Source: Sphaerisporangium sp. TRM90804
Lineage (GTDB): Bacteria; Actinomycetota; Actinomycetes; Streptosporangiales; Streptosporangiaceae
DNA: 64,000 nucleotides
Assembly: GCF_029846175.1 (NCBI RefSeq)
Contig: NZ_JARWAC010000013.1
Coordinates: 62,001-126,000, forward strand
Direction: 5' to 3'
Shown here in pieces: positions 17,442 to 60,900 of the stretch. The translations under genes and the position numbers were made by a program. The notes under the pieces are model-generated. The model searched no databases. It was not told the origin of the DNA and saw only the letters and a list, made by a program, of their open reading frames with translations. How positions within the stretch are numbered: the first letter of the stretch is position 1; every line of letters starts with the position of its first letter.

Positions 17442-17461
17442 CCGGCTCGAAGGCGGCTGGT
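17442..17461 (-). promoter_or_regulatory. SARP-type box, minus-strand orientation
   Basis: Read on the minus strand this is CCAGCCGCCTTCGAGCC: heptamers beginning CCAGCC and TCGAGCC with an 11-bp period. The same arrangement occurs at 25256 and 28973 before other leftward operons. It lies 59-78 bp upstream of the TcmI-like gene. Confidence 0.5.
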
Positions 17462-17573
17462 GCGCCCGCCGCCCGCGCGGCGGGCCCGGCGGCTCCAGTG
17501 GCCTACGAGTACGCGGACGTAGGACTCGTCAGGAAGCTCGCGCCGTCTCGCATCCCGTCAGGAGGTTCAGACG

Positions 17574-18635
17574 ATGGGGAAACGGCTACCCGCGTCCGTG
17601 GGCGTGGTCGGACCACCTGGTGCCGCCGCCCTTCCACCGCAGGCCAGGCTGCTCTTCTTGACCAGCGGCACCCGGATCTCGCACGTGCTGCACGCCGTGA
17701 CCGCCCTGGGGGTCGCCGATCACCTGGCGGACGGGCCCCTGCCGCCCGGCGAGATCGCCGCCGCCGCGGGGTGCGACGCCGACGCGCTGGCCAGGCTGCT
17801 GCGGGCGGCCGCCGCGGTCGGGCTGGTCGAACGCCTCGACGACGGCAGGTACACGCTCACCGACCTGTCGGAGCTGCTGCGCTCCGACGTCCCGGGCGGT
17901 CTGCGGGACGCCGTCCTGTACGCCGGTCACGCGATGACCGTCCGCCCGTACGGCGACCTGGCGGAGACCGTCCGCACCGGGGAGCCGGCCTTCGACCGGG
18001 TGTTCGGCATGCCGTTCTACGAGTACGGCAAGGCCGACCCGGCGGCGGGGCGGCTGATGAACAGCGCGATGCGGCACCTGTCGTCGGCGACCTCGGCCAC
18101 GCTGCTGGACGCCTGCGACCTGCACCGCTTCGAGCGGGTGGCCGACGTCGGCGGCGGCACCGGCCGGTTCCTGACCGAGGTGCTGAGGCGCAGCCCGGCC
18201 GCCAAGGGCGTGCTGGTCGACCAGCCCGCCGTGGTGGAGCAGGCGCGGCTCACGCTGGCCCGCACCGAGGAGGCGCGGCGCATGACCTTCGTCGGCGCCG
18301 ACTTCTTCGAGCGGGTGCCGGCCGGGTGCGACGCGTACGTGCTCAAGAGCGTGCTGCACAACTGGGGTGACGCCGACGCCGCCCGGGTGCTGCGCTGCGT
18401 GCGCGAGGCCATCGGCGTGGACGCCGACGCGCGCCTGTTCGTCTTCGAGCAGGTGCTCGGCGCCCCCAACACCTGGGACAACGGCGCGTTCATGGACATC
18501 GACATGATGCTCAAGTTCGGCGGCCGCGTCCGCGACCTCGCAGAGTGGCGGCGGTTGCTCGGCGAGGCCGGCTTCGCGCCGGCGAACGAGCCGCGGCCCG
18601 GCTCTTGGACGGTCCAGGTATGGCGCCCCTGCTGA
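17574..18635 (+). CDS. SAM-dependent O-methyltransferase (acetylserotonin-OMT/TcmO type)
   Basis: This 353-residue methyltransferase has an N-terminal dimerisation winged-helix part (residues about 25-115) and a C-terminal SAM domain. The glycine-rich loop ADVGGGTGRF is near residue 185 and the general-base histidine is in LKSVLHNWGD near residue 262. This family methylates phenols of aromatic polyketides, and sugar hydroxyls in some pathways. The first 25 residues are an unusual Pro/Gly-rich extension, although the AGGAGG at the start supports this ATG. Its 3' end overlaps the next gene by 16 bases, so it is co-expressed with deoxysugar genes. Confidence 0.87.
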   Translation: MGKRLPASVGVVGPPGAAALPPQARLLFLTSGTRISHVLHAVTALGVADHLADGPLPPGEIAAAAGCDADALARLLRAAAAVGLVERLDDGRYTLTDLSELLRSDVPGGLRDAVLYAGHAMTVRPYGDLAETVRTGEPAFDRVFGMPFYEYGKADPAAGRLMNSAMRHLSSATSATLLDACDLHRFERVADVGGGTGRFLTEVLRRSPAAKGVLVDQPAVVEQARLTLARTEEARRMTFVGADFFERVPAGCDAYVLKSVLHNWGDADAARVLRCVREAIGVDADARLFVFEQVLGAPNTWDNGAFMDIDMMLKFGGRVRDLAEWRRLLGEAGFAPANEPRPGSWTVQVWRPC

Positions 18636-19579
18636 CCGAGCCGGCGCCCAGGGCGCCGGCGGCCGTGGTGGGCGCGACGGGGTTCATCGGCTCCCGGCTG
18701 GTCCCCGGCCTGCGCGCGGCCATGGTCCCCACCCACGCCTTCGGCCGGCACACGCCGCTCACGCCCGGCGGCCGGCTGGCCGACGGCCTGCGGGAGGCGC
18801 GCACCGTCTTCTACCTCGCCACCAGGATCACCCCGGCCGTGGCCGAGGAGCATCCCGAGCTGGTGGAGGCCGACCGCTCGGCGTTCGTCGGGCTGCTCAA
18901 GCAGCTCGGCCGCACCGGCACGCGACCGACCGTGGTGCTGACCAGCTCCGGCGGCACCGCCTACGACCCCGCCTTCCCCCCTCCCTACTCCGAGGAGTCG
19001 CCGGTCAGGGCGACCAGCCGGTACGGCCGGGCCAAGCTGCTGCTGGAGCAGGAGCTGCTGGCCCGCGCCGACGTCATCCGCCCCGTGGTGCTGCGCCTGG
19101 CCAACGTGTACGGGCCCGGGCAGCGCAGCTGCAACGGGCTCGGCGTGGTGCCGCACTGGCTGGAGGCCATCGCCGACGGGCGGCCCGTCGTCGTGCTCGG
19201 CGACCCGGGCACCAGCAGGGACTACGTGTACGTCGACGACACGGTGCAGGCGCTGATCCGCGTGCACCTGGTGGCCTCGGAGCCGGGCGGGCCCGGCCGG
19301 GACGCCCTGCCGTCGATGCTCAACGTCGGCTCGGGCGAGCCGGTGTCGCTGAAGGACCTGCTGTCGGTGATCACCGAGGTGGTCGGGTTCGAGCCGCTGG
19401 TCGAGCACCGTGAGCGGCGCTCGTTCGACCGGCACGCGGCCTGGCTGGACGTGACCCGCGCGCGGTCCTGCCTCGGGTGGCGGCCGCGGACGCCGCTGGA
19501 GACGGGCGTCTCGGAGGCGTGGGGGGCGATGCGGACCGACCTCGCGCGGACGCGTCCCCAGAACTTCTCAAGGCGATAG
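18620..19579 (+). CDS. NDP-hexose 4-ketoreductase (NAD-dependent epimerase/dehydratase family)
   Basis: This 319-residue extended SDR has GATGFIGS at residues 18-25 and the catalytic Tyr-Lys in SRYGRAK (about residue 135). The C-terminal half holds the sugar-nucleotide-binding residues, including LRLANVYGPGQ and RDYVYVDD. Divergent relatives in deoxysugar pathways reduce the 4-keto group late in the route. The start lies inside the methyltransferase gene (ATG 18620), which implies coupling. With the 3-dehydrase downstream it fits a 2,3,6-trideoxyhexose branch. An epimerase role cannot be excluded. Confidence 0.78.
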   Translation: MAPLLTEPAPRAPAAVVGATGFIGSRLVPGLRAAMVPTHAFGRHTPLTPGGRLADGLREARTVFYLATRITPAVAEEHPELVEADRSAFVGLLKQLGRTGTRPTVVLTSSGGTAYDPAFPPPYSEESPVRATSRYGRAKLLLEQELLARADVIRPVVLRLANVYGPGQRSCNGLGVVPHWLEAIADGRPVVVLGDPGTSRDYVYVDDTVQALIRVHLVASEPGGPGRDALPSMLNVGSGEPVSLKDLLSVITEVVGFEPLVEHRERRSFDRHAAWLDVTRARSCLGWRPRTPLETGVSEAWGAMRTDLARTRPQNFSRR

Positions 19580-19640
19580 AGACAGACGTCGTGTGGACGA
19601 CCGGTGCCACGGCGTACCAGAGCCGCAGGAGGCGCACGTA

Positions 19641-22023: not shown

Positions 22024-22024
22024 C

Positions 22025-24219: not shown

Positions 24220-25197
24220 TCACGGATTGCGGACGAGCCGCACGGCGGCGCTGACCGCCTCCAGCAGCCGGGCCTGCCGGACGATGTCCGCGGCGTGGTC
24301 GCGATGGGCCGAGGGGCGGTGGACGTCCTCGGCGAACCGCCTGACCATGTTGGCGAACTGGTCGTCGGCGGCCAGCACCCGCTCCTCGCGGTGGTCCTGG
24401 CGCTCCAGCCTGAGCACCGGGCGGGCGGACGGCGGCGGCGTGAACGCCCAGTCGACGGTCAGCTTCCCCGTGCTGCCCAGGACGCTGTACGCGCAGCGGT
24501 ACATGTGCGACATGCCGAACACGCACTGCGCGGTCACGCCCATGGCGTCGTAGAGCAGGGCCGAGCCGGCGACGTCCACCCCGCCGCCCGCCTCCTGCTG
24601 CAGGACCGCCCCGGCGACGGTGAGGCCCGGGTCGAGGAAGAGCTGCGCGGCCCGCACCGTGTAGGTGCCGGTCTCCATCAGCGAGCCGCCGTCCAGCTCG
24701 GGCCGGTAGCGGATGGCGGCCCGGTCGCCCGGCGGGATGGCGAACTCGGCGATGACGTGCCGCGGCTCGCCGACGGCGCCCTCGGCGACCAGGCGGCGGG
24801 CGGTCTGGTGCTGGGAGTGGTGCAGGAAGGCGAAGTTCTCCATCAGCAGCAGCCCGCGCGCGGCGGCCTGCCCGGTCAGCTTCTCGGCGGTCACGGCCGA
24901 GGCGGTGAAGGACTTCTCGACGAGCACGTGCTTGCCGGCCTCCAGCGCCGCCTCCGCCCACCCCGCGTGCAGGGCGTTCGGCAGGGGCACGTACACCGCG
25001 TCCACGTCCGCGCGCTCCAGCAGCCGCTCGTATCCCCGGACGCCGTCGCAGCCGAACCGGCGGGCGAAGCGGAGCGCCTTGTCCTCGTCCCGGCTGGCGA
25101 CCGCGACCAGGCGCAGGCCGCTCGCGAGCATCGCCGGCACCGTCCGGCGCCAGGCGATGTCGGCGCAGCCCAGCACGCCGATGCGGAGTCCGTCCAT
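24220..25197 (-). CDS. NDP-hexose 3-ketoreductase (Gfo/Idh/MocA family)
   Basis: This 325-residue NADPH-dependent reductase acts after the 2,3-dehydratase, reducing the unstable 3-keto intermediate of 2-deoxysugar synthesis. It has a Rossmann start IGVLGCADIAWRR, the conserved E-K in HVLVEKSF near residue 93, and the C-terminal alpha-beta substrate domain. It is divergent from the 2,3-dehydratase at 25330, its functional partner. SARP-type boxes occupy the 132-base gap between them. Confidence 0.88.
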   Translation of the reverse strand: MDGLRIGVLGCADIAWRRTVPAMLASGLRLVAVASRDEDKALRFARRFGCDGVRGYERLLERADVDAVYVPLPNALHAGWAEAALEAGKHVLVEKSFTASAVTAEKLTGQAAARGLLLMENFAFLHHSQHQTARRLVAEGAVGEPRHVIAEFAIPPGDRAAIRYRPELDGGSLMETGTYTVRAAQLFLDPGLTVAGAVLQQEAGGGVDVAGSALLYDAMGVTAQCVFGMSHMYRCAYSVLGSTGKLTVDWAFTPPPSARPVLRLERQDHREERVLAADDQFANMVRRFAEDVHRPSAHRDHAADIVRQARLLEAVSAAVRLVRNP

Positions 25198-25244
25198 GTT
25201 CACTCCTCGCAGAAGGGGCGGCCTCACATCGTCGGGCGCGCCGC

Positions 25245-25270
25245 TCGAGGGGGGTTCGAAGCGGGCTGGC
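25245..25270. promoter_or_regulatory. SARP-type boxes, 11-bp spaced TCGAG/TCGAA repeats
   Basis: TCGAG at 25245 and TCGAA at 25256 are exactly 11 bp apart. On the minus strand a third element, CAGCCCGC, continues the phase. They lie 48-73 bp upstream of the leftward 3-ketoreductase gene. Confidence 0.55.
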
Positions 25271-25290
25271 CGCCGGCCGACGAGCCGCTT

Positions 25291-25308
25291 TCGAGCGCAC
25301 CACGAGTC
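25291..25308 (+). promoter_or_regulatory. SARP-type box before the 2,3-dehydratase gene
   Basis: TCGAG at 25291 and ACGAG at 25302 are 11 bp apart. The box ends about 22 bp before the ATG at 25330, so transcription would start close to or at the gene. Confidence 0.4.
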
Positions 25309-25329
25309 CGGTTCCGCAGGTTCGGGGGC

Positions 25330-28949: not shown

Positions 28950-28969
28950 GGCGGCATCCTGACGCCCGG

Positions 28970-28990
28970 GGCTCGAAGCGGGCTGGAGGA
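28970..28990 (-). promoter_or_regulatory. SARP-type box upstream of glycosyltransferase
   Basis: On the minus strand TCCAGCC and TCGAGCC begin 11 bp apart. The core CAGCCCGCTTCGA is identical to that at 25256-25268. It is 21-41 bp before the start at 28949. Confidence 0.5.
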
Positions 28991-28994
28991 CGCG

Positions 28995-30002
28995 TCAACC
29001 GCCGTGCCCCGGAACCTCCACCGTCACCACGGCGTGGTCCCCGACGACGAGCCGATGGCCCCGCCCGCCCGGCACGGCCGGCCCCACGCTGGCGTTCCTG
29101 CCGATGACCGAGCCGCGCACCCCGCGCAGGTCGCGCAGCTCCGCGCCCTCCATCAGGATCGAGTCGCCCACCGAGGCGCCGTCGACGACGCAGTCGGCGC
29201 CGACCGAGGTGTACGGCCCCACGACGCTGTCACGCACCACCGCGTCGGGCCCGATCAGCGCGGGCCCCACCACCCGCGACCGCTCGACCGAGCCCCCCTC
29301 CTCCACGACGACCTGCCCGACCAGCTCGCTGTCGGTGTCCACCATGCCCCGCACCTCGGCCCGGCGGGCGGACAGCACCGCGCGGTTGGCGGCCAGCAGG
29401 CCCTCCAGCACGCCGCCGTCCTCCCACTGACCGGCCGAGACGTGGTCGCGCACCACGTGGCCGTGCTCCCGAAGCCAGCGCAGCGCCGAGCCGATCTCCC
29501 GCCGGTTCGACCAGTCGGGGCCGATCGACCGGACGGCCTGGTGGACGACGGGGGACAGGACGCAGACGCCGGTGTCGGCGGGCTCGCCCCCCGGTGACCG
29601 GGCGCCGGTCAGGCGCAGCGCGTGCGGCCGGTCGGCCCGGTAGGCCTCGACCAGGTCTCCGATGCCGCCGAAGACCATGCGGTCGCCGGGGAACAGCACG
29701 AAGTCGGCGTCGCCGAGGTGGTCGCGCGCCGCCAGCACCGCGTGGGCGGTGCCCAGCGGCGCGTCCTGCGCGACATAGGAGACCCGCAGGCCGAAGCGGC
29801 CGCCGTCCCCGACGGCCCTGCGCACCGAGCCGTCGCGGGCGTCGACGACCACGACGGCCTCGGCGACGCCGGCCTGCCGGATCGCCTCCAGGCCGTAGAA
29901 CAGCAGCGGGCGGTTCCCCACCGGGATGACCTGCTTGGGCATGGTGTGGCTGAGCGGGCGGAGGCGGATCCCGCGGCCTCCGGCCAGGACGAGAGCTTTC
30001 AT
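28995..30002 (-). CDS. Sugar-nucleotidyltransferase paralogue with damaged catalytic motifs
   Basis: This 335-residue protein has the RmlA/GlmU-type architecture: a nucleotidyltransferase domain (residues 1-230) and a left-handed beta-helix tail (235-335). Key sites are altered compared with the paralogue at 48117. The phosphate loop reads G-I-R-L, not G-T-R-L. The E-K-P sugar-phosphate motif is absent from the segment around 130-145. E-I-T-D is E-I-G-S (169-172), and W-x-D-T-G is W-E-D-G-G. The aspartate in P-G-D-R (about 107) remains. A weak enzyme, a regulator or a pseudoenzyme are all possible. An upstream in-frame ATG at 30020 is an alternative start. It is divergent from the first SARP gene. 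Confidence 0.75.
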   Translation of the reverse strand: MKALVLAGGRGIRLRPLSHTMPKQVIPVGNRPLLFYGLEAIRQAGVAEAVVVVDARDGSVRRAVGDGGRFGLRVSYVAQDAPLGTAHAVLAARDHLGDADFVLFPGDRMVFGGIGDLVEAYRADRPHALRLTGARSPGGEPADTGVCVLSPVVHQAVRSIGPDWSNRREIGSALRWLREHGHVVRDHVSAGQWEDGGVLEGLLAANRAVLSARRAEVRGMVDTDSELVGQVVVEEGGSVERSRVVGPALIGPDAVVRDSVVGPYTSVGADCVVDGASVGDSILMEGAELRDLRGVRGSVIGRNASVGPAVPGGRGHRLVVGDHAVVTVEVPGHGG

Positions 30003-30093
30003 GACGAGGCTGACCTTCATCTCTTCCGGTGTGACCGTCGCGGCGCCTGCGGAGGCGCGCCGCTCATACTGACGGATGTCACTGGACGGGCGG

Positions 30094-30146
30094 TCGAGTG
30101 TGCCTGAACCTGAGGAGGCGAGAGCGGCTCGATCGAGGCTCGAGCG
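30094..30146. promoter_or_regulatory. Cluster of SARP-like heptamers in the SARP/nucleotidyltransferase divergent promoter
   Basis: TCGAGTG (30094), TCGAGGC (30133) and TCGAGCG (30140) share the TCGAGNN consensus used by ActII-ORF4-type regulators. The last two are directly abutting, and the first is not in 11-bp phase with them. The gap of 243 bases separates the leftward nucleotidyltransferase-like gene from the SARP gene at 30246. Confidence 0.4.
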
Positions 30147-30245
30147 AGGCCGCGCACTGTTTCGCCTGCCACCGACCGTCCATCGGCGGCCGGCCGGCGC
30201 TCGCGCCGCCCGGCCCCGACGTGACCGGACCATGCTGAGGGTGAC

Positions 30246-32427: not shown

Positions 32428-32544
32428 TATTCAGTGGGTTCGGGTGTGCGTGCTTAATTGTTCACCAGGCTCACTCGGCGTGCCGTGCGGTGTCGGCTCC
32501 CGCCCACGTCTGCCGCTGCAAGGGCCTGCCGAAGGAGGAAGCGA

Positions 32545-34135: not shown

Positions 34136-35968
34136 ATGGAATTTAAGATCTTGGGGGGTCTTGAGATAGTCTCAAACGGCTCTGACATAACCCCCTCAGC
34201 TCCGAAACTGCGCCGAGTCCTGTGCCTGCTGCTTCTCCATCCGAACCAGATCGTGCAGACGGCGGCGCTGATCGACGAGTTGTGGGGCGACGAGCCCGTG
34301 CGCAGCGCGATGACGACGATGCAGACCTACATTTATCTGCTTCGCAAGACCTTCGGGCACGAAAGCGACCTCGCCGAGAACATCCTCGTCACCAAACCCT
34401 CCGGCTACATCGTTCACACGCCTCCCGAAAGCGTCGACCTGTTCAGGTTCGAGGCGCTCGCCGAGAAGGGCCGTCAGGCGTTGCGCGGCGGCGACGCCGA
34501 GCAGGCCAGGACGCGGCTCGCCGAGGCGCTCGCCCTGTGGCGCGGCCCGGCCCTCGCCGACGTGCAGACCGGGCGGCTGCTCGAAGCGCACGTCACCCGC
34601 CTGGAGGAGGGGCGCCTGCGCACGTTGGAGCTGCGCATCGAGGCCGACCTGCGGTGCGGCCAGCACAGGGAGCTCATCAGCGAGCTCAAGGCGCTGACCA
34701 CCTCCCACCCCTACCACGAGGCGTTCTACCAGCAGCTCATGCTGGCGCTGTACCGATCGGGGCGCCAGTGCGAGGCGCTCGACGCCTACGGGCGGCTGCG
34801 CAAGGCCTTCGTCAAGGACCTCGGCGTGGAGCCGTCGGTCGACCTGCGCCGCCTCCAGCACAGCATCCTCGGCGCCGACCCGACCCTCGACCTGCAGGTC
34901 CCCGCGCCCGCCAGGGCCGTGACCGTCGAACGCGGCCCCCGGCCACCGTCCCAGCTCCCCCCGGACATCGCCGACTTCACCGCCAGGAGCGACGTGGTGA
35001 GCATGGCCGAGGCCGTGCTCACCGGCGAGGACACGGAGCGGTCGAACATCGTCCAGCTCGTCGGCATGCCGGGCGTCGGCAAGACGGCGTGCTCGGTCCG
35101 CATCGCCCACCGGGTGCGGTCCCGCTTTCCCGACGGCCAGGTGTACGCCAGCCTGCGCGGCTCCGAGGACGACCCCGTGCCGTACGGCGACGTCCTGCGC
35201 GGCTTCCTGCGTGCCATGGGGGTGCACGACACCGACATGCCCGACAGCCTGCCCGAGTGCGCCGAAGCGTTCCGCGGGCACTGCGCCGGCCGCAGGATGC
35301 TCGTCGTCCTGGACGACGTCGCCTCGGCCGACCAGGTGGCCGCGCTGCTGCCCGGCGGCGACCGCTGCGGGGTGCTGGTGACCTCCCGGGGCCCGCTGGA
35401 GGGCCTGCCCGGCACCTGTGCCATCAAGGTCGGCGTCATGGCCGAGAACGAGAGCGTGGACCTGCTCGCCGGCATCGTCGGGCGAGAACGGGTGAGCCGC
35501 GGCCGCGAGGCGGCCAAGCGCATCGTGCAGCTCTGCGACAACCTCCCGCTGGCCGTGCGCGCGGCGGGGGCTCGGCTGGCCGCCGTCCCGGCCCTGTCGC
35601 TGGACCGGTTCTCCGCCCAGCTCGTCGACGAGCGCAGGCGCCTGAGCCAGCTCGGCTCCAGCGACTTCGACGTCCGCGCCCAGTTCGAGGCGACCTACCA
35701 GCGGCTCCCGGAGGCCGACCGGTCGGCCGCCCGGTGGCTGAGCCTGTTCGCGAACCGGTCGTTCACCGCGCGCGGAGCCTCGATCCTGCTCAGCCAGCGG
35801 CGCGACGCGACCGACCGGCTGCTGGAGAAGCTGGCCGAGGTCCACTTCGTCCAGCGCCTCGGCCCGGACGCCAGCGGCCAGGTGTACTACCGCTTCTTCG
35901 AGCTTCCCCGCGCCCTGCTCTGCGACCACGCCATGGGCACCCTCCTGGAAGGACTGCGCGCCTGCTGA
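34136..35968 (+). CDS. SARP-family transcriptional activator with NB-ARC domain (second)
   Basis: This 610-residue regulator has the same plan as the first SARP. It has a winged helix (residues 1-95), an activation domain with the conserved L-W-R-G-P-A-L-A-D segment (about 100-250) and an NB-ARC-like part with P-loop G-M-P-G-V-G-K-T (about 325) and L-V-V-L-D-D. The ATG at 34136 follows GGGAGG. An open frame extends 47 codons upstream but has no ribosome site. Its first codons are AT-rich. Two SARPs in one cluster suggest a cascade or separate target sets. Confidence 0.9.
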   Translation: MEFKILGGLEIVSNGSDITPSAPKLRRVLCLLLLHPNQIVQTAALIDELWGDEPVRSAMTTMQTYIYLLRKTFGHESDLAENILVTKPSGYIVHTPPESVDLFRFEALAEKGRQALRGGDAEQARTRLAEALALWRGPALADVQTGRLLEAHVTRLEEGRLRTLELRIEADLRCGQHRELISELKALTTSHPYHEAFYQQLMLALYRSGRQCEALDAYGRLRKAFVKDLGVEPSVDLRRLQHSILGADPTLDLQVPAPARAVTVERGPRPPSQLPPDIADFTARSDVVSMAEAVLTGEDTERSNIVQLVGMPGVGKTACSVRIAHRVRSRFPDGQVYASLRGSEDDPVPYGDVLRGFLRAMGVHDTDMPDSLPECAEAFRGHCAGRRMLVVLDDVASADQVAALLPGGDRCGVLVTSRGPLEGLPGTCAIKVGVMAENESVDLLAGIVGRERVSRGREAAKRIVQLCDNLPLAVRAAGARLAAVPALSLDRFSAQLVDERRRLSQLGSSDFDVRAQFEATYQRLPEADRSAARWLSLFANRSFTARGASILLSQRRDATDRLLEKLAEVHFVQRLGPDASGQVYYRFFELPRALLCDHAMGTLLEGLRAC

Positions 35969-37665: not shown

Positions 37666-37726
37666 GGGCGCCGCCTCTCGCTCGGGGGCGAAGGGTTCCT
37701 GCGCCGTCGAGTGTGCGCATCGCGCT

Positions 37727-37744
37727 TCGAAGAACGCTCGAAGG
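37727..37744 (-). promoter_or_regulatory. SARP-type box before P450 gene
   Basis: TCGAAG at 37727 and TCGAAG at 37738 are identical hexamers exactly 11 bp apart, 62-80 bp upstream of the leftward P450 start. Confidence 0.6.
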
Positions 37745-37888
37745 TCCGGGCCTGCCGCCCCGCCGGGGCCGCCCGCGGGCCCCGCGTCCGGCGTCCCGGC
37801 CTGCGGCGACGGGCGGCCCGGGGCGGGCCGGACGGGGACGCGGCGGCGCGGGTCCGCTCCGCCCGGCGCGCCGGTGGTTCAGCGGTTC

Positions 37889-37906
37889 TCGAACCGGATT
37901 CGAAGA
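37889..37906 (+). promoter_or_regulatory. SARP-type box before the minimal-PKS operon
   Basis: TCGAAC at 37889 and TCGAAG at 37900 are 11 bp apart, about 72-89 bp upstream of the 4,6-dehydratase start. That gene heads the operon carrying the cupin, KS-alpha, KS-beta, ABM and carboxyltransferase genes. Confidence 0.6.
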
Positions 37907-37977
37907 GGCGGCGCGAGCCTCGTCACCACGGCCGGCCCGGACGCCTGGTCGTGCACGTCCGACGAAGGGAGATGGAT

Positions 37978-44561: not shown

Positions 44562-44701
44562 GGCGACCTGCCTGTGACTGTGAGAAAAGCAGCTACCGTA
44601 CAGCGTCGCACGTGCCGCTCAGAGCTCGTCTGAGAACTCGCGAACCGGTGACGACACACTCGCATCGCCCGCGTTTCCGGCGATCGCCGCCGAGCCGGTG
44701 C

Positions 44702-45388: not shown

Positions 45389-45416
45389 GGGCGTCATTGT
45401 GCGACTTAATGTCGAC

Positions 45417-45830
45417 ATGAAGTCAATCGGCGAGGTGGCGGCTCGGTTCGGGCTGCCGACACACGCGCTGCGGCACTGGGAGGCGGAAGGCCTGCTGACC
45501 CCGGCCCGCGCGGGCGACCGCCGCCGCTACACCGACGAGGACCTGTACCGGGTGGCGGCGATCCTGATCTCGAAGGAGGCGGGTTTCGGACTCCCCGACA
45601 TCCGGACGATGCTGACCGCCCGGTCCGCGCCGGCCCGCCACGAGGTGATGGCCCGCCACCGCGAGAGGCTGCTGGCACGGATCGCCCGCGCGCAGGCCGC
45701 ACTCGACATGCTCGAAGGCGGCCTGGAATGCCCGCACGACGACATCATGACCTGCCCGCATTTCCAGGGCTTCCTGACCGACCGCCTGCGGCCGTCCCCC
45801 GAGACGAATTCGGCACAACCTGACGGTTGA
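45417..45830 (+). CDS. MerR-family transcriptional regulator
   Basis: This 137-residue regulator has an N-terminal MerR helix-turn-helix (I-G-E-V-A-A-R-F-G-L-P-T-H-A-L-R-H-W-E), the Y-T-D-E-D-L-Y-R recognition wing, and a coiled-coil dimerisation helix. A C-terminal C-P-H-D-D-I-M-T-C-P-H segment (C-x2-x6-C with His) could bind metal or sense redox. No ribosome site precedes the ATG at 45417, so a leaderless mRNA is possible. The 28-base gap to the divergent methyltransferase contains GTCGACATTAAGTCGCAC on the minus strand, a candidate operator. Confidence 0.85.
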   Translation: MKSIGEVAARFGLPTHALRHWEAEGLLTPARAGDRRRYTDEDLYRVAAILISKEAGFGLPDIRTMLTARSAPARHEVMARHRERLLARIARAQAALDMLEGGLECPHDDIMTCPHFQGFLTDRLRPSPETNSAQPDG

Positions 45831-50842: not shown

Positions 50843-50866
50843 GCCGGCGATCCTGTCCAGCGCGGC

Positions 50867-50883
50867 TTGAGGAGCGCTCAAGG
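50867..50883 (-). promoter_or_regulatory. SARP-type box for leftward FAD hydroxylase operon
   Basis: TTGAG (50867) and TCAAG (50878) are 11 bp apart, 25-41 bp upstream of the start at 50842. The two elements are in partial inverted relation, so the assignment is less certain than for the neighbouring triple repeat. Confidence 0.35.
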
Positions 50884-50900
50884 ATCGGTCGGGGCCGCTC

Positions 50901-50929
50901 TTCAGGGCGGCTCGACCGGCCCTCGAAGA
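50901..50929 (+). promoter_or_regulatory. Triple SARP-type repeat, 11-bp phase
   Basis: TTCAG (50901), TCGAC (50912) and TCGAA (50923) are three heptamer starts in strict 11-bp phase. They end 42 bp before the rightward FAD enzyme start at 50971. Multiple in-phase repeats are known for strong SARP sites. Confidence 0.5.
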
Positions 50930-50970
50930 CGGCCGCGTAGCTTCGCCGCCATGGCGCTGGAGGATGGTCG

Positions 50971-52695
50971 ATGACGGCACAGGTACAGGTGCTGGTGGTG
51001 GGGGCCGGCCCGGCGGGGCTCACCGTCGCCCTGGCGCTGGCCGGGCAGGGCGTGCGGGTCCGCGTCGTGGACCGCCGGCCCGGAGGGGCGGCGGGCACGG
51101 GCTGCCACATGGTGTGGCCGCGGACGCTGGAGGCGCTGGACCGCGCGGGGCTGCCCGTCGCGCGGCTGGCCCGGCGGGGCCTCACCGTGCGGCGCAAGGT
51201 CTTCCACCTGGGGGAGGAGTCCTTCTCACACGGCCTGGAGGACCCGCGCGGCCTGTGGCCGCTGCCGCTGTCGGTCGAGCAGGCGGTCCTGGAGGAGGAG
51301 CTCGCCGTCGAGGCCGAAGCCCTCGGCGTCCGTGTCGAGCGGTCCGTCGAGGCCGTCGCCGTCGAGCAGGACGCGGCGCGGGCCGTGGTCGAGCTGCGCG
51401 GCCCCGGCGGCGCCGAGCGGGTCACCGCCGGGTGGGTGGTGCTCGCGCAGGGCGGCGCGGACGGGCTGCGCGAGCGGCTGGGGTTCGGCTGGCACGCCGA
51501 GCCGCTGCCCGGAGGCCGGGTCGTGCACATGGACGTCGAGCTGCCCGCAACCGCGGGCCTCGCGCCGTCGTCGGAGTACATCTTCCTCGGCAGGGGCCGC
51601 AGCGCCGGCCTCGTCCCGCTGCCCGGCGGGCGCCACCGCCTGTTCGCCGTCCTCGGCGAGGACGGCGACGTCCCCGGCGCCCCCGGGCCGGGTGCCGCGG
51701 GCGAGGGCACCGGACCCACCCCCGGCCAGGGCGGTCAGCCCGGCACGCCCTGGCCGGGGGTGCCGGACGTGGTGCGCGAGCTCACGGGCATCGAGAAGGG
51801 CATCAGGCACCTCGGCCAGGACTGGTGCTTCCGGCCCCGGCACGGCATCGCGGCCTCGTTCCGGCGGGGCCGCTGCTTCCTGGTCGGCGAGTCCGCGAAG
51901 GCCGCGCCCATGCCGGTGCACGGCATGAACGGCGGGGTCCAGGACGCGTACAACCTGGCGTGGAAGCTCGGCGCGGTGCTGCGCGGCCGGGCGGGGGAGT
52001 GGCTGCTGGACACCTACTCGGCCGAGCGGCGCGCCGTCGCCGAGGACGTCTTCGGCAAGGCAAGGCGCATCCTGGCCTTCGGCACGGCCCCCGACCCCGA
52101 CGCCACGCACGGCGAGCGGGTGCGCCGCCGCCGCCACGACGTGAAGACCGAGCCGCCCCTGCGCTACCACGGCGAGCCGCTGCACCACGACGGGCACGCC
52201 ATGCCGGGCCCGCGGGTGGGCGAGCAGCTGCCCGACGCGCCGGTCGTCACGCCGTCCGGCGCCCCCGGCACCCTGCTGCGTAGCCTGGCCGGCGGGTCCG
52301 CCTGGACCATGCTCGTCATGTGCCGCGACGGCGCCGGCGCCCGGGCGGCCGGGGGCGCCAGGGCGGCGGTCGCGGGCGTGGCGGCGCTGCGGGTCTGCGT
52401 GGTGGGCGCCCTCCCGTGGGAGGGCGCGGCGGAGCTGGACGGGGACGTGATGGTGCGGCTGGGGGATCCGGGCGGTACCGCGCACGCGGCCCTCGAAGTG
52501 CGGGAGCCGGTCGTCTACCTGCTGCGGCCGGACGGCCACATCGGCTACCGGGGCCGGCTCGCCGACCTCAACGGGCTGCGCGCCTACGCCGCCCGGGTGC
52601 TGCGCCCGGGTGTCCCGCGTCCCGCCGCGCCCACCGGGGACCCGATGACGCGGGACGGGGCGGCCCGCCCGCGCGGAAGATCCAGAAACGCTTGA
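50971..52695 (+). CDS. FAD monooxygenase-like protein with altered third FAD motif
   Basis: This 574-residue relative of aromatic hydroxylases has an intact G-A-G-P-A-G (residues 11-16) and G-G-A-D-G (161-165). The motif that is normally G-D-A-A-H reads G-E-S-A-K (306-310), losing both the Asp that holds the FAD ribityl chain and the His. The downstream N-G-G-V-Q-D-A-Y-N-L-A-W-K-L is normal. A Gly/Pro-rich insertion (about 231-263) interrupts the substrate domain. It could be a Baeyer-Villiger-like or ring-opening oxygenase, or a partner of the intact enzyme across the divergent promoter. Confidence 0.82.
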   Translation: MTAQVQVLVVGAGPAGLTVALALAGQGVRVRVVDRRPGGAAGTGCHMVWPRTLEALDRAGLPVARLARRGLTVRRKVFHLGEESFSHGLEDPRGLWPLPLSVEQAVLEEELAVEAEALGVRVERSVEAVAVEQDAARAVVELRGPGGAERVTAGWVVLAQGGADGLRERLGFGWHAEPLPGGRVVHMDVELPATAGLAPSSEYIFLGRGRSAGLVPLPGGRHRLFAVLGEDGDVPGAPGPGAAGEGTGPTPGQGGQPGTPWPGVPDVVRELTGIEKGIRHLGQDWCFRPRHGIAASFRRGRCFLVGESAKAAPMPVHGMNGGVQDAYNLAWKLGAVLRGRAGEWLLDTYSAERRAVAEDVFGKARRILAFGTAPDPDATHGERVRRRRHDVKTEPPLRYHGEPLHHDGHAMPGPRVGEQLPDAPVVTPSGAPGTLLRSLAGGSAWTMLVMCRDGAGARAAGGARAAVAGVAALRVCVVGALPWEGAAELDGDVMVRLGDPGGTAHAALEVREPVVYLLRPDGHIGYRGRLADLNGLRAYAARVLRPGVPRPAAPTGDPMTRDGAARPRGRSRNA

Positions 52696-52709
52696 GGCGC
52701 GCTCGGCTA
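52692..52709 (+). promoter_or_regulatory. SARP-type box before small membrane protein gene
   Basis: TTGAG at 52692 and TCGGC at 52703 are 11 bp apart, overlapping the FAD enzyme stop and 52-69 bp upstream of the next gene. The second element is a weak match. Confidence 0.35.
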
Positions 52710-52760
52710 TGTCGGTTTACTTGGGACGCCCGGTGAACGGCGTACGAAGAGGAGCCCTGT

Positions 52761-53216
52761 ATGAGCAGTCAGCCGTCCCCTCAGTTATCTGGGCCGTCCG
52801 CGGTGCTGCGGCTGTGGCCGTGGAAGGCCGCGGCCGGCACCGCCCTGGTGGTCGCCGTCGCCTGGTTCGCGCTGGCGGCCTCCGGGGGTGACGTGCGGGC
52901 CATCATCGTGGCCAGCCCCGTCTGCCTGGGGCTGGTGGTGTTCTTCCTGCTCGGCGGCATCATCGCGGTGGCCTCCGAGCCCGCGGGCGAGCGGCGGGAC
53001 GCCCGGGCGTGGGCGCTGCGCCACCCGTGGGCCTTCGCGCTGTGGCCGGCGCTGGCGACGGCCGTCCTGGTGTTCGTCGTCCGCAGGCTGCTCGACCTGT
53101 GGAACCTGAACGAGACCCTGCTCAGCAGCGCGCTCGACGGCCTGGGCCGCGCCGCCGCCGTGCTCGTCTGCGTGGCCCTCACCGCGCTGGCCGCCCGCCG
53201 CGGGCAGAAGGGCTGA
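52761..53216 (+). CDS. Small integral membrane protein, unknown
   Basis: This 151-residue protein has about four hydrophobic segments (near 27-42, 48-68, 90-107, 128-145) separated by charged loops, and a GAGGAG ribosome site. I recognise no family motif. It lies between an oxygenase gene and a secreted beta-propeller gene, with weak SARP-like repeats in front. Possible roles are transport support or membrane anchoring of an enzyme complex, both speculative. Confidence 0.75.
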   Translation: MSSQPSPQLSGPSAVLRLWPWKAAAGTALVVAVAWFALAASGGDVRAIIVASPVCLGLVVFFLLGGIIAVASEPAGERRDARAWALRHPWAFALWPALATAVLVFVVRRLLDLWNLNETLLSSALDGLGRAAAVLVCVALTALAARRGQKG

Positions 53217-53333: not shown

Positions 53334-53351
53334 TCGAGTGTGTTTCGAGGC
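53334..53351 (+). promoter_or_regulatory. SARP-type box before the BNR propeller gene
   Basis: TTTCGAG occurs at 53332 and again at 53343, exactly 11 bp apart. It is one of the best-matched pairs in the window. The distance to the gene start at 53452 is about 100 bp. The remainder of the 235-base gap shows nothing else. Confidence 0.6.
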
Positions 53352-53451
53352 CGTCACTAGGCGGCGCCGACAGGCTGCGTCGGCAGACAGCCGCCTGCCC
53401 GGCGTGTGACCGGTGACGCGCGGCGATCCACCTTCTCGAGGGAGCGAACCT

Positions 53452-54960
53452 GTGAAGAGCAGCCGTGTCGCCGCTTTCGGCGCGGCGACGGGCGCCCTGC
53501 TCATGAGCCTCACGCTCATGACGGCCCCGGGCACCGCCCACGCCTCCACCTGGGACCAGCCGGTACGCCTGTCGGACGCGAGCCCGTTCGCGAGCTGCAC
53601 GGCCGACACCGTCCCCGGCGACTCCTACACCCTCAACACCGAGTCCGAGTCGACCGTCGCCGTCCATCCGTGGAACCCGCTCGTCACGGCGGTCGCCTGG
53701 CGCCAGGACCTGTGGGCGACCGGCAGCTCCCGCGGCATCGTGGTCGCCTCCACCAAGAACGGCGGGATCACCTGGAAGAAGACCGTGCTCCCCGGCGTCT
53801 CGGAGTGCTCGGGCGGGCAGGGCCGCGTCACCAACCCCTGGCTGCAGTTCGGCGCCGACGGCACCCTGCACGCCACCGTCACGATCTTCGGCGGCGACCG
53901 GTCGATCGTCGCGGCCCTGCGCTCCACCGACGCCGGCTCCACCTGGAGCGCGCCGGCCGCGCTGTCGAGCGACGTCATGCCGCGCTTCTGGAGCGACAAG
54001 CAGACCGTCACCACCGACCCGCGCGACCCGCGCCGCGTGTACGTCGTCTGGAACCGGCGCGACCGCGAGCTCGACTTCCACGAGGTCCTGTTCGCCCGCA
54101 GCGACGACGCCGGCCGCACCTGGCGGCCCACCCGCTCGATCTACCGCCCGCAGACCCCCGGCGCGGGCACGGTCGGCAACCAGATCGCCGTGCTGCCCAA
54201 CGGCGACCTGGTCAACGTCTTCGTGGAGAACGAGCACGCCATCGGCGGCGCCCCCTACCCGGCACCCGTCCAGGAGCGGGTCGCCGTGATGCGGTCCAGC
54301 GACCGCGGCGCCACCTGGACCGAACCGGTGAGCGTCCCGGGCACCTTCATCGTCGGCCAGCCCCTGCTGCCCGACACCCCCTGGGTGCCGGTGATGGCGC
54401 CGGGCATCGTGCCCGACATCGCCGCCGACCGGCTCACCGGCACGCTCTACCTGGTCTGGGGCGACGCGACCATGTCCGGCAGCTACAGCGGCGTCGCGCT
54501 GTCCACCTCCTCCGACGGCGGGCGCACCTGGAGCACCCCGCGCAAGATCAACCAGACGCCCGAGTCGCCGCCGTTCGGCAGCGGGCAGGCGTTCCTGACG
54601 CAGGTCGAGACCACGATCACCGGCGCCGTCGGCATCAGCTACTACGACTTCCGCAACAACACCGCCGACCCCGGCGCGACCACCGACGTGTGGCTGTCCA
54701 CCTGCCGTGCCCGCTGCTCGGCCGCCGACGCCCGCTGGCAGGAGGAGCACCTGGCCGGGCCCTTCGACCTCGGCCAGGCCCCGATGTGGTTCGGCGGCCC
54801 CTACGTCGGCTCCTTCGTGGGCCTGTCCCACACGCTCACCGGCTTCGTGCACGCCCCCATCACCACCACGGGCGACCCGGCGAACCCGACCGACGTGTCG
54901 CTGGCGCGATCGAGTTTCAAGCCAGCCTTGAGCGCCGGCTCGGATGCTCCCTCTCGATGA
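53452..54960 (+). CDS. Secreted BNR-repeat (sialidase-like) beta-propeller protein
   Basis: This 502-residue exported protein starts at GTG 53452 after GAGGGAG. The signal peptide ends at A-H-A (about residue 30). Five Asp-box turns (S-x-D-x-G-x-T-W type) are visible: K-N-G-G-I-T-W, T-D-A-G-S-T-W, D-D-A-G-R-T-W, S-D-R-G-A-T-W and S-D-G-G-R-T-W. They indicate a six-bladed sialidase/neuraminidase fold. I cannot confirm the arginine triad of true sialidases. A secreted propeller inside an aromatic PKS cluster is unusual. The SARP-type box in front suggests that it is part of the regulon. Confidence 0.82.
   Translation: MKSSRVAAFGAATGALLMSLTLMTAPGTAHASTWDQPVRLSDASPFASCTADTVPGDSYTLNTESESTVAVHPWNPLVTAVAWRQDLWATGSSRGIVVASTKNGGITWKKTVLPGVSECSGGQGRVTNPWLQFGADGTLHATVTIFGGDRSIVAALRSTDAGSTWSAPAALSSDVMPRFWSDKQTVTTDPRDPRRVYVVWNRRDRELDFHEVLFARSDDAGRTWRPTRSIYRPQTPGAGTVGNQIAVLPNGDLVNVFVENEHAIGGAPYPAPVQERVAVMRSSDRGATWTEPVSVPGTFIVGQPLLPDTPWVPVMAPGIVPDIAADRLTGTLYLVWGDATMSGSYSGVALSTSSDGGRTWSTPRKINQTPESPPFGSGQAFLTQVETTITGAVGISYYDFRNNTADPGATTDVWLSTCRARCSAADARWQEEHLAGPFDLGQAPMWFGGPYVGSFVGLSHTLTGFVHAPITTTGDPANPTDVSLARSSFKPALSAGSDAPSR
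54917..54934 (+). promoter_or_regulatory. SARP-type box inside the propeller gene end
   Basis: TCAAG (54917) and TTGAG (54928) are 11 bp apart, with TCGAG at 54910 just before. They lie 57-74 bp upstream of the methyltransferase gene at 54991, which heads the glycosyltransferase operon. Confidence 0.4.
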
Positions 54961-54990
54961 CTTCGGTCCCGGAACGGAAGAGGTGCTGAC

Positions 54991-55734
54991 ATGCTCGCGG
55001 AAATGCTGGCTCGCTCAGGGCACAAGATTCTCGGTGAGCAGCCCCCGGACGGGGCGAAATACTGGGCGGCCCGCTTCTGGGACCGCGACCTGGCCGAGCG
55101 CGACCCCCTGCTCGGCGAGCACTACCGGGCGCAGAAGGCCGACCTGGCGCAGGTGATCGAGAAGTACGCCAGGGACGCCGACCGGGTGATCGAGTTCGCC
55201 TGCGGCACGGGCGAGTTCACCGGGATGATGGCCCGGCTGAGCCTGGCCAAGGAGATCGTCGCGCTGGACATCTCGGCGCAGGGCCTGGAGAAGACCCGCG
55301 CGCGGGTCGGCCACCCCGGCCTGCGCACGGTGCTCGGCGACTTCTGGGAGGACCACGACCTCGGCACGGCCGACGTGGTGATGTGCGTCGACGCCATCCA
55401 CCACATCGGCGACCCGCGGCGGGTCATGGAGCGCATGAAGTCGTTCGTGCGCCCCGGCGGTGTGTTCATCGGCAACCTGTGGACGGTCGACAACTTCCAC
55501 GAGTTCCAGCGGCAGCGGTACGGCGCCCTGTGGCACCTGGGCCGCTCGGCGATGTTCCTGGGCAGCGCCATGGTGATCAAGGCGTCCGGCGGGCGGCTGC
55601 GCAGCGGCTCCTACCGCACCCGCCTGATGCGCACGTCCGAGATCGAGCCGCTGCTGCGCAGCGTGTTCGGCGAGGTCCTGCACGTCTGCGCGGACCGCTA
55701 CTTCGTCAGCTTCGCCTGCCGGGTCGAGGGCTGA
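54991..55734 (+). CDS. Class I SAM-dependent methyltransferase
   Basis: This 247-residue methyltransferase has the SAM loop V-I-E-F-A-C-G-T-G-E-F-T (about residues 66-77), the acidic L-D-I-S-A end of strand 2 and the D-A-I-H-H-I-G segment. A roughly 60-residue N-terminal cap holds a K-Y-W-A-A-R-F-W helix. Substrate could be the aglycone or a sugar hydroxyl. It is the first gene of a rightward operon with the metallo-hydrolase, epimerase and two glycosyltransferases. Confidence 0.83.
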   Translation: MLAEMLARSGHKILGEQPPDGAKYWAARFWDRDLAERDPLLGEHYRAQKADLAQVIEKYARDADRVIEFACGTGEFTGMMARLSLAKEIVALDISAQGLEKTRARVGHPGLRTVLGDFWEDHDLGTADVVMCVDAIHHIGDPRRVMERMKSFVRPGGVFIGNLWTVDNFHEFQRQRYGALWHLGRSAMFLGSAMVIKASGGRLRSGSYRTRLMRTSEIEPLLRSVFGEVLHVCADRYFVSFACRVEG

Positions 55735-55742: not shown

Positions 55743-56441
55743 ATGAGGCTGTATCTCATCCCGGTCGCCGAGATCGCGGCCACCGGCGGGCCGGTCCCGG
55801 TGTACCTCATCCGCACGGATGAGGGCGCGAACGTGCTCGTCGACACCGGGTACGCCCGCGACCGGGCCGGCCTGCCCGGCCCGGTCAAGGCGGAGCCCGG
55901 GGCCGACGTCGTCAGCCGGCTGGCGGGGCTGGGGGTGCGGCCGGACGACGTCCACTACGTGGTCTGCTCGCACTTCGACCCCGACCACGCCGGCAACCAC
56001 GACGCGTTCCCCTCGGCCGAGTTCGTGGTGCAGAGGCGCCACGACGAGCTGGCCCGCTCGCGAGCCGTGCCGCGGCTGGAGATGTGCAGGGCCAGCTGGG
56101 ACCACCCCGGGTTGAAGTACAGCCTCGTCGACGGCGACACCGAGCTGGTGCCCGGGGTCGAGCTGGTGGAGTCGAGCGGTCACGTCGAAGGCCACCAGTC
56201 GGTCCTCGTGCGCCTGCCGGAGACGGGCCCGGTGCTGCTCGCGGTGGACGCCGTCCCCGAGCAGGCCGCGGCCGACCCCGCGACCCGGCGCATCTACCCG
56301 TTCGACCTGGACGAACAGGCCACCCGGGCCTCCACGGCCCGGCTGGCCCGGCTCGCCCGGGACGAGAAGGCCCTGGTCGTCTACGGGCACGACGCCCGCC
56401 AGTGGCGGGACCTGCGGACATGGCCCGGCTACCTGAGCTAG
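55743..56441 (+). CDS. Metallo-beta-lactamase-fold hydrolase (possible ActIV-like cyclase/thioesterase)
   Basis: This 232-residue MBL-fold protein has the dinuclear zinc motif S-H-F-D-P-D-H-A-G-N-H (H77, D79, D81, H82). A later S-S-G-H-V-E-G-H-Q gives a third His and D-A-V-P the bridging Asp. It resembles the lactonase branch of the fold. ActIV of actinorhodin is an MBL-type cyclase/thioesterase that closes the second ring and releases the chain, so such a role is plausible here. Only the genomic context suggests it. It starts eight bases after the methyltransferase stop. Confidence 0.8.
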   Translation: MRLYLIPVAEIAATGGPVPVYLIRTDEGANVLVDTGYARDRAGLPGPVKAEPGADVVSRLAGLGVRPDDVHYVVCSHFDPDHAGNHDAFPSAEFVVQRRHDELARSRAVPRLEMCRASWDHPGLKYSLVDGDTELVPGVELVESSGHVEGHQSVLVRLPETGPVLLAVDAVPEQAAADPATRRIYPFDLDEQATRASTARLARLARDEKALVVYGHDARQWRDLRTWPGYLS

Positions 56442-59949: not shown

Positions 59950-59960
59950 CCCGCGTCCGA

Positions 59961-59986
59961 AGCCCCGGCCGTCCCCGGCCGGGGCT
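59961..59986. terminator. Hairpin between convergent genes
   Basis: AGCCCCGGCC pairs perfectly with GGCCGGGGCT across a six-base loop. It can end both the rightward glycosyltransferase operon and the leftward SDR gene. Confidence 0.7.
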
Positions 59987-59995
59987 CCGGCACGC

Positions 59996-60808
59996 TCAGG
60001 CGCGGGCGGGGGTGGTGTCGCCGGCGGCGAGGGCGTCGGCGGCCCTGCGGCCCCAGGTCTGGTAGCGGCCGCGGCGGACCAGGCCGGGGAACCAGCGGGC
60101 GGCGGCCGCCCTGAGACGGTAGTCGGCGCCGACCACGTGCACCGGCCGGCCCGCCGCCACGGCGGCCAGGCCCTGGCGGGCGACGGCCTCGGGCGCGATC
60201 ACGCGGCCGAACCGGCCGCCCTTCGACCGCGAGCCCGCGGTGGCCACCGAGCCGGGGCACAGGGCGGTGACCGACACGCCCAGCCACTTCACCTCGCCGT
60301 GCACGCTCTGGCTGAACGAGACGACGAACGCCTTGCTGGCCACGTACGCGGCGCCGCCCGGGGCGGGCGCGAAGGCGCTCGCGGAGGAGAGGTTGACGAC
60401 CCCTCCGCGCCGCCGCGGCACCATGCCGGTGACGGCCGCGCGGGTCAGCCGGACGGTCGCGGCGATGTTGAGGTCGATGAGCCGCTCGTGCGCCCCCTCC
60501 TCCTGGTGGGGGAGCGGCCCGATGCGGCCCACCAGGCCCGCGCTGTTGACCAGCAGGTCGACCGGCCGCCCGGGGTCGGACAGCCGCAGTTCGACGGCGC
60601 GCAGCCCCTCGGGGCTGGTCAGGTCGGCGGCGATGGTCTCCACCTGGACGCCGTGCCGCGAGCGCAGCTCCCCGGCCAGGGTGTCCAGCGGCGCGGCCCG
60701 CCTGGCCACCACCACCAGGTGGTGGCCGCGGGCGGCCAGCTCGCGGCAGAAGGCCTCCCCTATGCCGCTGGAGGCGCCGGTGACGAGTGCGGTTCTCAAT
60801 TCTCCCAT
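59996..60808 (-). CDS. SDR family oxidoreductase
   Basis: This 270-residue classical SDR has T-G-A-S-S-G-I-G-E-A (residues 9-18), N-S-A-G near 86, catalytic Ser in N-L-S-S-A-S and Y-V-A-S-K near 155. It has the general layout of the DltE/YqjQ group. It could reduce a ketone on the aglycone or be unrelated. It is transcribed alone, leftward. The start at 60808 is chosen by alignment of the glycine motif; an upstream ATG at 60835 is in frame. Confidence 0.83.
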   Translation of the reverse strand: MGELRTALVTGASSGIGEAFCRELAARGHHLVVVARRAAPLDTLAGELRSRHGVQVETIAADLTSPEGLRAVELRLSDPGRPVDLLVNSAGLVGRIGPLPHQEEGAHERLIDLNIAATVRLTRAAVTGMVPRRRGGVVNLSSASAFAPAPGGAAYVASKAFVVSFSQSVHGEVKWLGVSVTALCPGSVATAGSRSKGGRFGRVIAPEAVARQGLAAVAAGRPVHVVGADYRLRAAAARWFPGLVRRGRYQTWGRRAADALAAGDTTPARA

Positions 60809-60882
60809 CTCCCGGATTTTATCAACGCAATTCATCGGCGACTATGCCGGAAAGCGGTCGGCAAATGGCGCTAGACGGCTTT

Positions 60883-60900
60883 TCTAGTGGTCCTCGAGGT
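60883..60900 (+). promoter_or_regulatory. SARP-type box before the second DUF1772 gene
   Basis: TCTAGTG (60883) and TCGAGGT (60894) are 11 bp apart, 60-77 bp upstream of the DUF1772 start. It lies in the divergent gap with the SDR gene. Confidence 0.4.

Follow-up and report, generated by a model that had tools for sequence, protein, structure and literature searches.

The sequence TCGAG is the consensus for ActII-ORF4 and DnrI, activators of the Streptomyces antibiotic regulatory protein (SARP) type. In the complex formed by AfsR of Streptomyces coelicolor, solved by cryo-electron microscopy, two SARP domains lie side by side on two repeats and touch sigma region 4, and the rule given for SARP promoters is that repeats are spaced by 11 or 22 bp, with 8 bp to the -10 element (PMC10936776). 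Three-heptamer SARP operators have been described at named promoters of DnrI (at dnrD), ActII-ORF4, VlmI and FdmR1 (PMC10972967), and in S. avermitilis predicted SARP heptamers with 4- or 15-nt spacers lie upstream of mapped starts in SARP-bearing clusters (PMC8780764). Here we analyze a stretch of 64,000 bases from Sphaerisporangium sp. TRM90804 (hereafter the window; it covers bases 62001-126000 of its 150-kb contig, and the genome measures 8.32 Mb), in which direct repeats of the type TCGAR-N6-TCGAR recur in a type II polyketide cluster that encodes two SARPs, SARP1 and SARP2. These repeats are very probably SARP operators that mark SARP-dependent promoters across the cluster; binding by a SARP, activation, and the respective shares of SARP1 and SARP2 we infer from the sequence.

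Gene calling by codon usage yielded 59 genes in the window, and 58 proteins were scanned against Pfam. The cluster spans from ∼14.8 kb to the window end and encodes ketosynthases, cyclases, several glycosyltransferases, deoxysugar enzymes, FAD monooxygenases, a P450 and an ABC transporter, in addition to two regulators (SARP1 and SARP2) that combine an OmpR-type domain with BTAD and NB-ARC. From this gene content and a review (PMC9327801), our guess is that the product is perhaps a glycosylated polycyclic xanthone or a relative of one.

A preliminary description of this DNA had named twelve places with such repeats, and repeats of the claimed type are present at all twelve. Exact pairs occur on at least one strand at 25245, 37727, 37889, 50912 (exact on the minus strand, one mismatch on the plus strand) and 53334; those at 25291/25302 (ACGAG) and 60883 (TCTAG) carry one mismatch, and the repeats at 17442, 28970, 50867, 54917 and 52692 are more degenerate, 52692 being the weakest. 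The positions given for them held, except that 17442 and 28970 are only starts of context, their TCGAA words beginning at 17447 and 28973. Five boxes, those at 17442, 25245, 28970, 37727 and 50867, read on the minus strand and serve leftward genes. A separate core, CCAGCC(C/G)-C-TTCGA, had also been proposed for three leftward operons and is rejected here: on the minus strand these promoters run in 11-bp steps throughout (GCCAGCC-TCGAACC-TCGAGCG, TCCAGCC-TCGAGCC and ACCAGCC-TCGAGCC-ACTAGCC), so that the supposed core is a degenerate form of the upstream (5') heptamer in this 11-bp repeat, with GCCAGCC, TCCAGCC and ACCAGCC as variants of TCGAGCC.

The excess of exact pairs is large. The window holds 10 strand matches, which represent only 6 places because TCGA is self-complementary, as compared to a shuffle mean of 0.55, and none of 100 shuffles reached 10. 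All ten are intergenic (7,660 of the window's bases lie outside called genes), no coding pair was found at spacing 11, and intergenic exact pairs were absent from the window at spacings of 8, 9, 10, 12, 13, 14, 21, 22 and 23. In the whole genome there are 50 exact matches, 10 of them in the window, and 26 matches to the backwards pattern; the 40 matches outside the window predict 0.31 per 64 kb. Nor is the density of pairs equal in random intergenic DNA, since 360 kb of the same genome used as a control (720,000 strand positions) had none in its 70,660 intergenic bases, versus 10 in the 7,660 of the window.

The first set to be scored comprised 14 sites oriented by their genes (the twelve places and both strands of the 30128 region). 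In 10 of the 14 the hexamer NANNNT lies exactly 8 bp past the 3' heptamer, whereas each of 21 other offsets has 0-1. The -10 element here is a sequence prediction (an NANNNT-like hexamer), and its 8-bp spacing fits the published rule for SARP promoters. Scans were made with a 20-column matrix of two heptamers and the -10-like hexamer. When sites were left out of the matrix one at a time, 10 of the 14 were matched or beaten by 0-2 of the control positions; results were weaker for 53334 (21 positions as high), 54917 (37), 17461 (343) and 52692, which fails this test (2,314). At a score of at least 14, the matrix found 16 matches in the window, one of them inside a gene at 950, as compared to 2 in the entire control. 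The window's intergenic DNA, ninefold smaller than that of the control, has 19 matches at ≥12 and 14 at ≥14, and matches at ≥14 fall 17 inside and 1 outside the cluster. The predicted -10 elements are weak, reading CANNNT or GANNNT at 11 of 13 own promoters, with one TANNNT and one AANNNT. The earlier list did not include 30129(+), 30097(-), 17494(+), the third heptamer present at most of the scored sites, or two boxes just past the window end. Of these, 17494(+), 30097(-) and the two boxes came from the matrix, which also gave third-repeat readings at 17450(-) and 53345(+).

Genome-wide, the fuller pattern TCNAR-N6-TCGAR-N11-ANNNT has 6 matches, 5 of them in the window, and 3 when written backwards. 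The sole full-pattern match found elsewhere, C34:67330, probably arose by chance; it lies upstream of an open reading frame (ORF) whose translation we read as sugar/adenosine-kinase type. Two isolated full-architecture matches at 5587 and 9434 of locus L033 (G000:C4:300001-320000; scores 16.0 and 18.3), on a contig with no listed BTAD match, are probably chance as well.

Six comparison loci, in other genomes of the same family, were reached through ketosynthase matches and scored without the -10 columns. At threshold 10 they gave 146 intergenic matches, a count in which a palindromic site may appear once per strand; 42 had NANNNT at 8 bp, 28 had it at 19 bp (8+11), and no other of 23 offsets exceeded 6. 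A peak at 19 bp is what one would expect of a triple array in which the two upstream heptamers form the scoring pair. Among coding matches over seven loci (own included), NANNNT stood at 8 bp in 0 of 78.

The presence of a third heptamer is the rule rather than the exception. For this comparison we took own promoters scoring ≥14, not deep in genes and with NANNNT (13 of 17 own matches), and by the same rule 14 of 17 matches from a syntenic cluster, designated G237. A heptamer 11 bp upstream of the pair was found in 12 of 13 own, 12 of 14 G237 and 19 of 30 other promoters, versus a mean of 12% at other offsets and 10 of 148 control-DNA matches; the cut-off for calling it (> -2) was chosen after the profile had been seen, and in overlapping back-to-back promoters (e.g., 27146/27149 in the G237 locus) what scores as the third heptamer can belong to the partner promoter. 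The only own promoter of the 13 to lack it is that of the P450 gene (37710..37741). A further heptamer at 22 bp gave no signal. First heptamers of own divergent arrays are separated by 31, 32, 32, 33, 33 and 148 bp, with one of the pairs immediately beyond the window end. Back-to-back distances in G237 differ (-3, 23, 23, 35, 65 and 67), so the own 31-33 bp distances are not general. We do not claim helical phasing of back-to-back boxes, as 18 pooled distances gave R 0.43 with p 0.03-0.04 for periods of 10.5 and 11 bp, and a 10-bp period gave p 0.48.

The G237 cluster belongs to another genus of the same family. In it 42 genes match own-cluster proteins at ≥45% identity, and both SARPs are kept together with boxes (SARP1 at 47%, SARP2 at 54%). 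Leading genes were defined by a gap of ≥28 bp or a divergent neighbor (35 listed, many of the short-gap ones probably inside operons), and a leader was called boxed when a matrix match of ≥12 lay within 260 bp upstream. By this rule 15 of 35 own leaders are boxed, or 16 once the P450 gene 36370 uses start 37665 (box 37741). For 13 of the 16 an orthologue exists in G237, and all but one of those 13 orthologues are boxed as well; the exception, 53452, trails another gene by 39 bp in G237. Conversely, 10 of the 12 unboxed own leaders with an orthologue are unboxed in G237, the discordant two being 19641, which heads its own unit there, and 52803, with its scores of 10.5 here and 18.5 there. Matches at ≥14 in G237 number 17 inside and 0 outside the cluster.

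Both regulators pass Pfam cut-offs for Trans_reg_C and BTAD, with the OmpR-type domain N-terminal and BTAD following, and relatives of SARP1 by name reach at most ∼39% identity among the matches listed. The SARP1 promoter is boxed in the own and G237 clusters, which suggests putative self-activation of SARP1 (positive feedback), while for SARP2 no matrix match of ≥9 was found between 33411 and 34253, and its gene is unboxed in G237 as well. The residues with which AfsR contacts DNA are Q48, W74, P79, T88, R92, R94 and K95 (PMC10936776). Aligned with AfsR, SARP1 and SARP2 both keep W74, T88, R94 and K95 and have Lys for Q48; P79 is kept in SARP1 and replaced by Val in SARP2, and at R92, which contacts a base in AfsR, SARP1 carries Lys and SARP2 Leu. 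The same Lys/Leu difference recurs in G237 and hints at different roles for SARP1 and SARP2. A weak PPDK_N-type ORF of low coding score lies between both SARP genes (32458-33411) and is the best match of no G237 gene.

The geometry of these promoters fits that of the AfsR complex in the 11-bp repeat, the 8-bp distance and the weak -10. Each heptamer would take one SARP protomer, and neighboring protomers, lying side by side at a distance of one helical turn, would replace the -35 element. The 3' heptamer would be fixed 8 bp from a weak -10, so that a bound SARP could hold sigma region 4 and RNA polymerase on an intrinsically poor promoter; the third heptamer, one turn upstream, would offer room for a third protomer at most promoters. 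The cluster would then fire as one regulon that includes the SARP1 gene, which would amount to positive feedback. That the boxes are SARP boxes, as the preliminary description proposed, is supported by the NANNNT at 8 bp, the third phased heptamer, the genome-wide concentration and the promoter-by-promoter conservation in the syntenic cluster. Genes with no obvious polyketide role, which it described as pulled in by the boxes, are indeed present inside the boxed cluster, and four of them (52803, 53452, 55743 and 61759) have 47-64% orthologues in the syntenic cluster. Overall the cluster resembles a single switchable unit of a known type, one that is unusually complete here and that a related bacterium has conserved.

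Several observations weigh against this interpretation. At four of the 14 first-scored sites (53334, 30128 minus, 17461 and 52692) the hexamer 8 bp on is not NANNNT: 52692 carries TACTTG there, 17461 has no NANNNT even when read in the third-repeat register, 53334 misfits in its first register, and 30128 minus misfits where 30097 minus fits better. For 53334, a -10 after the second repeat was replaced by the third repeat, ACTAGGC, with CAGGCT 8 bp past it; for gene 28995, 30128 minus (listed as 30143 minus) was set aside in favor of 30097 minus for the -10-like hexamer of the latter, even though 30128 minus scores higher (19.4 vs 16.6). The matrix was trained on the sites of the preliminary description and two added ones, and the 30129 register is not independent because it was chosen with its -10 in view. 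The control is not free of matches: 2 score ≥14 and 3 score ≥13, a single 20-kb stretch containing all three, and its 70,660 intergenic bases have 7 at ≥12 and 2 at ≥14. Lastly, 19641 and 52803 are boxed (≥12) in G237 only and 53452 here only, and the genome has 29 BTAD matches, so another SARP could read the boxes.

This last possibility, that a SARP encoded elsewhere in the genome and neither SARP1 nor SARP2 is the reader, is the strongest of the alternatives and in our judgment improbable. In its favor, besides the number of BTAD matches, is the replacement of Arg92 of AfsR by Lys in SARP1 and Leu in SARP2; however, the syntenic cluster, from another genus of the family, keeps both SARPs along with the boxes, SARP1 has a boxed promoter here as well as there, and the boxes are concentrated in the own cluster. 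We consider it quite unlikely that the boxes are operators of some other regulator, e.g., one reading palindromic TTCGAA or CTCGAG with the 11-bp spacing incidental. Self-complementary TCGA does cause several sites to read as pairs on both strands, but among ten spacings intergenic exact pairs occur only at 11, NANNNT is fixed at 8 bp in the direction of the gene, and the degenerate halves TCCAGCC, TTGAGCG and TCAAGCC are non-palindromic. Chance, or a composition artefact of high-GC intergenic DNA, can be dismissed almost entirely, for although the motif is short and degenerate and its sites were picked by eye, shuffles, whole-genome counts, the 360-kb control with its intergenic part, and the other clusters contradict it.

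The positions of start codons bear on the predicted SARP promoters. Across the seven loci, an ATG falls 6-8 nt past the predicted -10 in 14 of 57 promoters, as compared to roughly one per offset elsewhere; this is where a leaderless start would be expected, and the placement supports the -10 calls because it was not built into the matrix. In the own cluster 6 of 13 promoters have such an ATG, in frame with the gene at 25330, 28949 and 50842, and one promoter past the window has an ATG that begins a 105-codon ORF in a different reading frame from the called gene. The ATG at 25330, located 7 nt downstream of the -10, suggests that the NDP-hexose 2,3-dehydratase starts there rather than at 25405, which would extend the protein by 25 codons (25330-25404). 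The glycosyltransferase 27639-28949 (ATG 6 nt after the -10, also 6 nt in G237) and the FAD monooxygenase 49184-50842 (7 nt, also 7 nt in G237) are predicted to be leaderless. Other promoters open short frames: a 7-codon ORF (50951-50974) begins 7 nt past the -10 and terminates in a stop codon that overlaps the ATG of the FAD monooxygenase at 50971, and a 10-codon ORF (54957-54989) begins 8 nt after the -10 and ends just before the methyltransferase start at 54991. Both may encode leader peptides of the leaderless type that are coupled to the enzyme gene. In G237, a comparable short frame follows promoter 68791, its stop codon (ending 68859) overlapping the start called at 68856. In S. avermitilis, 22.2% of mRNAs are leaderless (PMC8780764).

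The coordinates of boxes and regulators are given in Table 1. The box at 54906..54948 sits inside the 3' end of the upstream ORF.

Table 1. Predicted SARP boxes (heptamers, distance to the hexamer, hexamer) and SARP genes of the cluster.
Feature	Position	Strand	Gene served or annotation	Matrix score	G237 score or remark
ACCAGCC/TCGAGCC/ACTAGCC; at 8 bp TTCTCT, not NANNNT	17419..17461	-	Upstream of cyclase-led operon 17063-17383, leftward		Leader 14.1
TCCAGTG/ACGAGTA, 8 bp, TAGGAC (final T missing)	17494..17525	+	O-methyltransferase gene, open from ATG 17574	15.5	
GCCAGCC/TCGAACC/TCGAGCG, 8 bp, GACGAT	25228..25270	-	Gfo/Idh/MocA oxidoreductase 24220-25197	23.1	21.5
ACGAGCC/TCGAGCG/ACGAGTC, 8 bp, CAGGTT	25280..25322	+	NDP-hexose 2,3-dehydratase	22.2	20.6
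TTGACGC/TCCAGCC/TCGAGCC, 8 bp, CAGGAT	28956..28998	-	Glycosyltransferase 27639-28949	23.3	17.5
TTCAGGC/TCGACCG/TCCAGTG, 8 bp, CAGTAT	30066..30108	-	Nucleotidyltransferase 28995-30020	16.6	Leader without orthologue
GCGAGAG/TCGATCG/TCGAGCG, 8 bp, CACTGT	30118..30160	+	SARP1	20.7	20.4
SARP1, 617 aa	30246..32099	+	Pfam BTAD 1.4e-41, Trans_reg_C, NB-ARC; matches AfsR and EmbR chains		
SARP2, likely start ATG 34136	34136..35968	+	Pfam BTAD 1.6e-48, OmpR-type DNA-binding domain, NB-ARC; AfsR/EmbR matches		
TCGAGCG/TCGAAGC, 8 bp, CACACT	37710..37741	-	Cytochrome P450 36370-37665	22.6	18.2
TTCAGCG/TCGAACC/TCGAAGA, 8 bp, GAGCCT	37878..37920	+	dTDP-glucose 4,6-dehydratase 37978, then ketosynthase genes	21.8	20.1
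CCGACCG/TTGAGCG/TCAAGCC, 8 bp, CAGGAT	50850..50892	-	FAD monooxygenase 49184-50842	22.2	21.5
TTCAGGG/TCGACCG/TCGAAGA, 8 bp, TAGCTT	50901..50943	+	FAD monooxygenase 50971-52695	21.7	16.0
Weak box TTGAGGC/TCGGCTA, 8 bp, TACTTG	52692..52723	+	Small membrane-type protein 52761/52803-53216	10.5	Leader 18.5
TCGAGTG/TCGAGGC/ACTAGGC, 8 bp, CAGGCT	53334..53376	+	BNR-repeat secreted-type protein 53452-54960	14.9, 13.5 (two registers)	
GCGATCG/TCAAGCC/TTGAGCG, 8 bp, GATGCT	54906..54948	+	Methyltransferase 54991-55734	18.2	No orthologue
TAGACGG/TCTAGTG/TCGAGGT, 8 bp, CAGCTT	60872..60914	+	Anthrone-oxygenase-like gene 60960-61421	21.0	18.4
Box just past window end (matrix)	L051:1733	-			
Box just past window end (matrix)	L051:1766	+			

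Some neighboring genes deserve mention. An island at 44238-45830 (MazG-type, methyltransferase and MerR-type genes) has no box, is the best match of no G237 gene and is an apparent insertion in the cluster. The BNR-repeat secreted-type protein (53452-54960), the small membrane-type protein (52803-53216) and a secreted-type protein with no Pfam or NCBIfam match (61759-62784) lie inside the cluster and have orthologues in that of G237. The product of 55743-56441 has a metallo-beta-lactamase fold, its best NCBIfam matches being acyl-homoserine lactone (AHL) lactonases (below cut-off), and a 64% G237 orthologue.

An uncharacterised aromatic polyketide cluster thus gains a predicted on-switch, a promoter list (with two boxed promoters beyond the window) and a proposed correction of a gene start. 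A further-reaching reading, which we put forward tentatively and regard as doubtful, is that the working operator of this SARP class is a fixed three-heptamer array, perhaps occupied jointly by SARP1 and SARP2, and that a third protomer belongs to the activation complex at almost all promoters, own divergent genes being served by back-to-back arrays and some targets being leaderless with their ATG at the box-predicted start. A literature search found no cluster with triple heptamers as the usual case, which is no proof that none exists.

The resemblance to AfsR and its afsS promoter is close, with a pair of direct repeats at 11 bp (in afsS the upstream repeat overlaps the -35), 8 bp from the 3' repeat to the -10 as stated for SARP promoters, a suboptimal -10, CACTGT, identical to the hexamer predicted at 30155 before SARP1, and a regulator with an OmpR-type domain, BTAD and a nucleotide-binding region (PMC10936776). 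AfsR differs in having an extra TPR domain, and the heptamer here is TCGARNN-like rather than an afs box, with a third heptamer as the usual case. The operators of DnrI at dnrD, ActII-ORF4, VlmI and FdmR1 likewise consist of tandem heptamers in three repeats upstream of biosynthetic genes (PMC10972967), but there the triples are named promoter by promoter, whereas here they occur at 12 of 13 scored promoters. The PimR operator also has three heptamers with 4-nt spacers; its triple is described as clear of the -35 box (PMC10972967), whereas the arrays of this cluster keep a constant distance to the -10. The predicted heptamers of S. avermitilis, with 4- or 15-nt spacers, likewise lie in clusters having a SARP, and a promoter-by-promoter comparison between species, such as the one made here, was not found in the accessible portion of that report (PMC8780764). 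Triple heptamers at individual promoters are known already (PMC10972967), and what the present locus adds is a conserved set of SARP-type promoters: an operator set shared by two syntenic clusters in which the third heptamer is usual, as compared to the dimer on two repeats of the solved AfsR complex.

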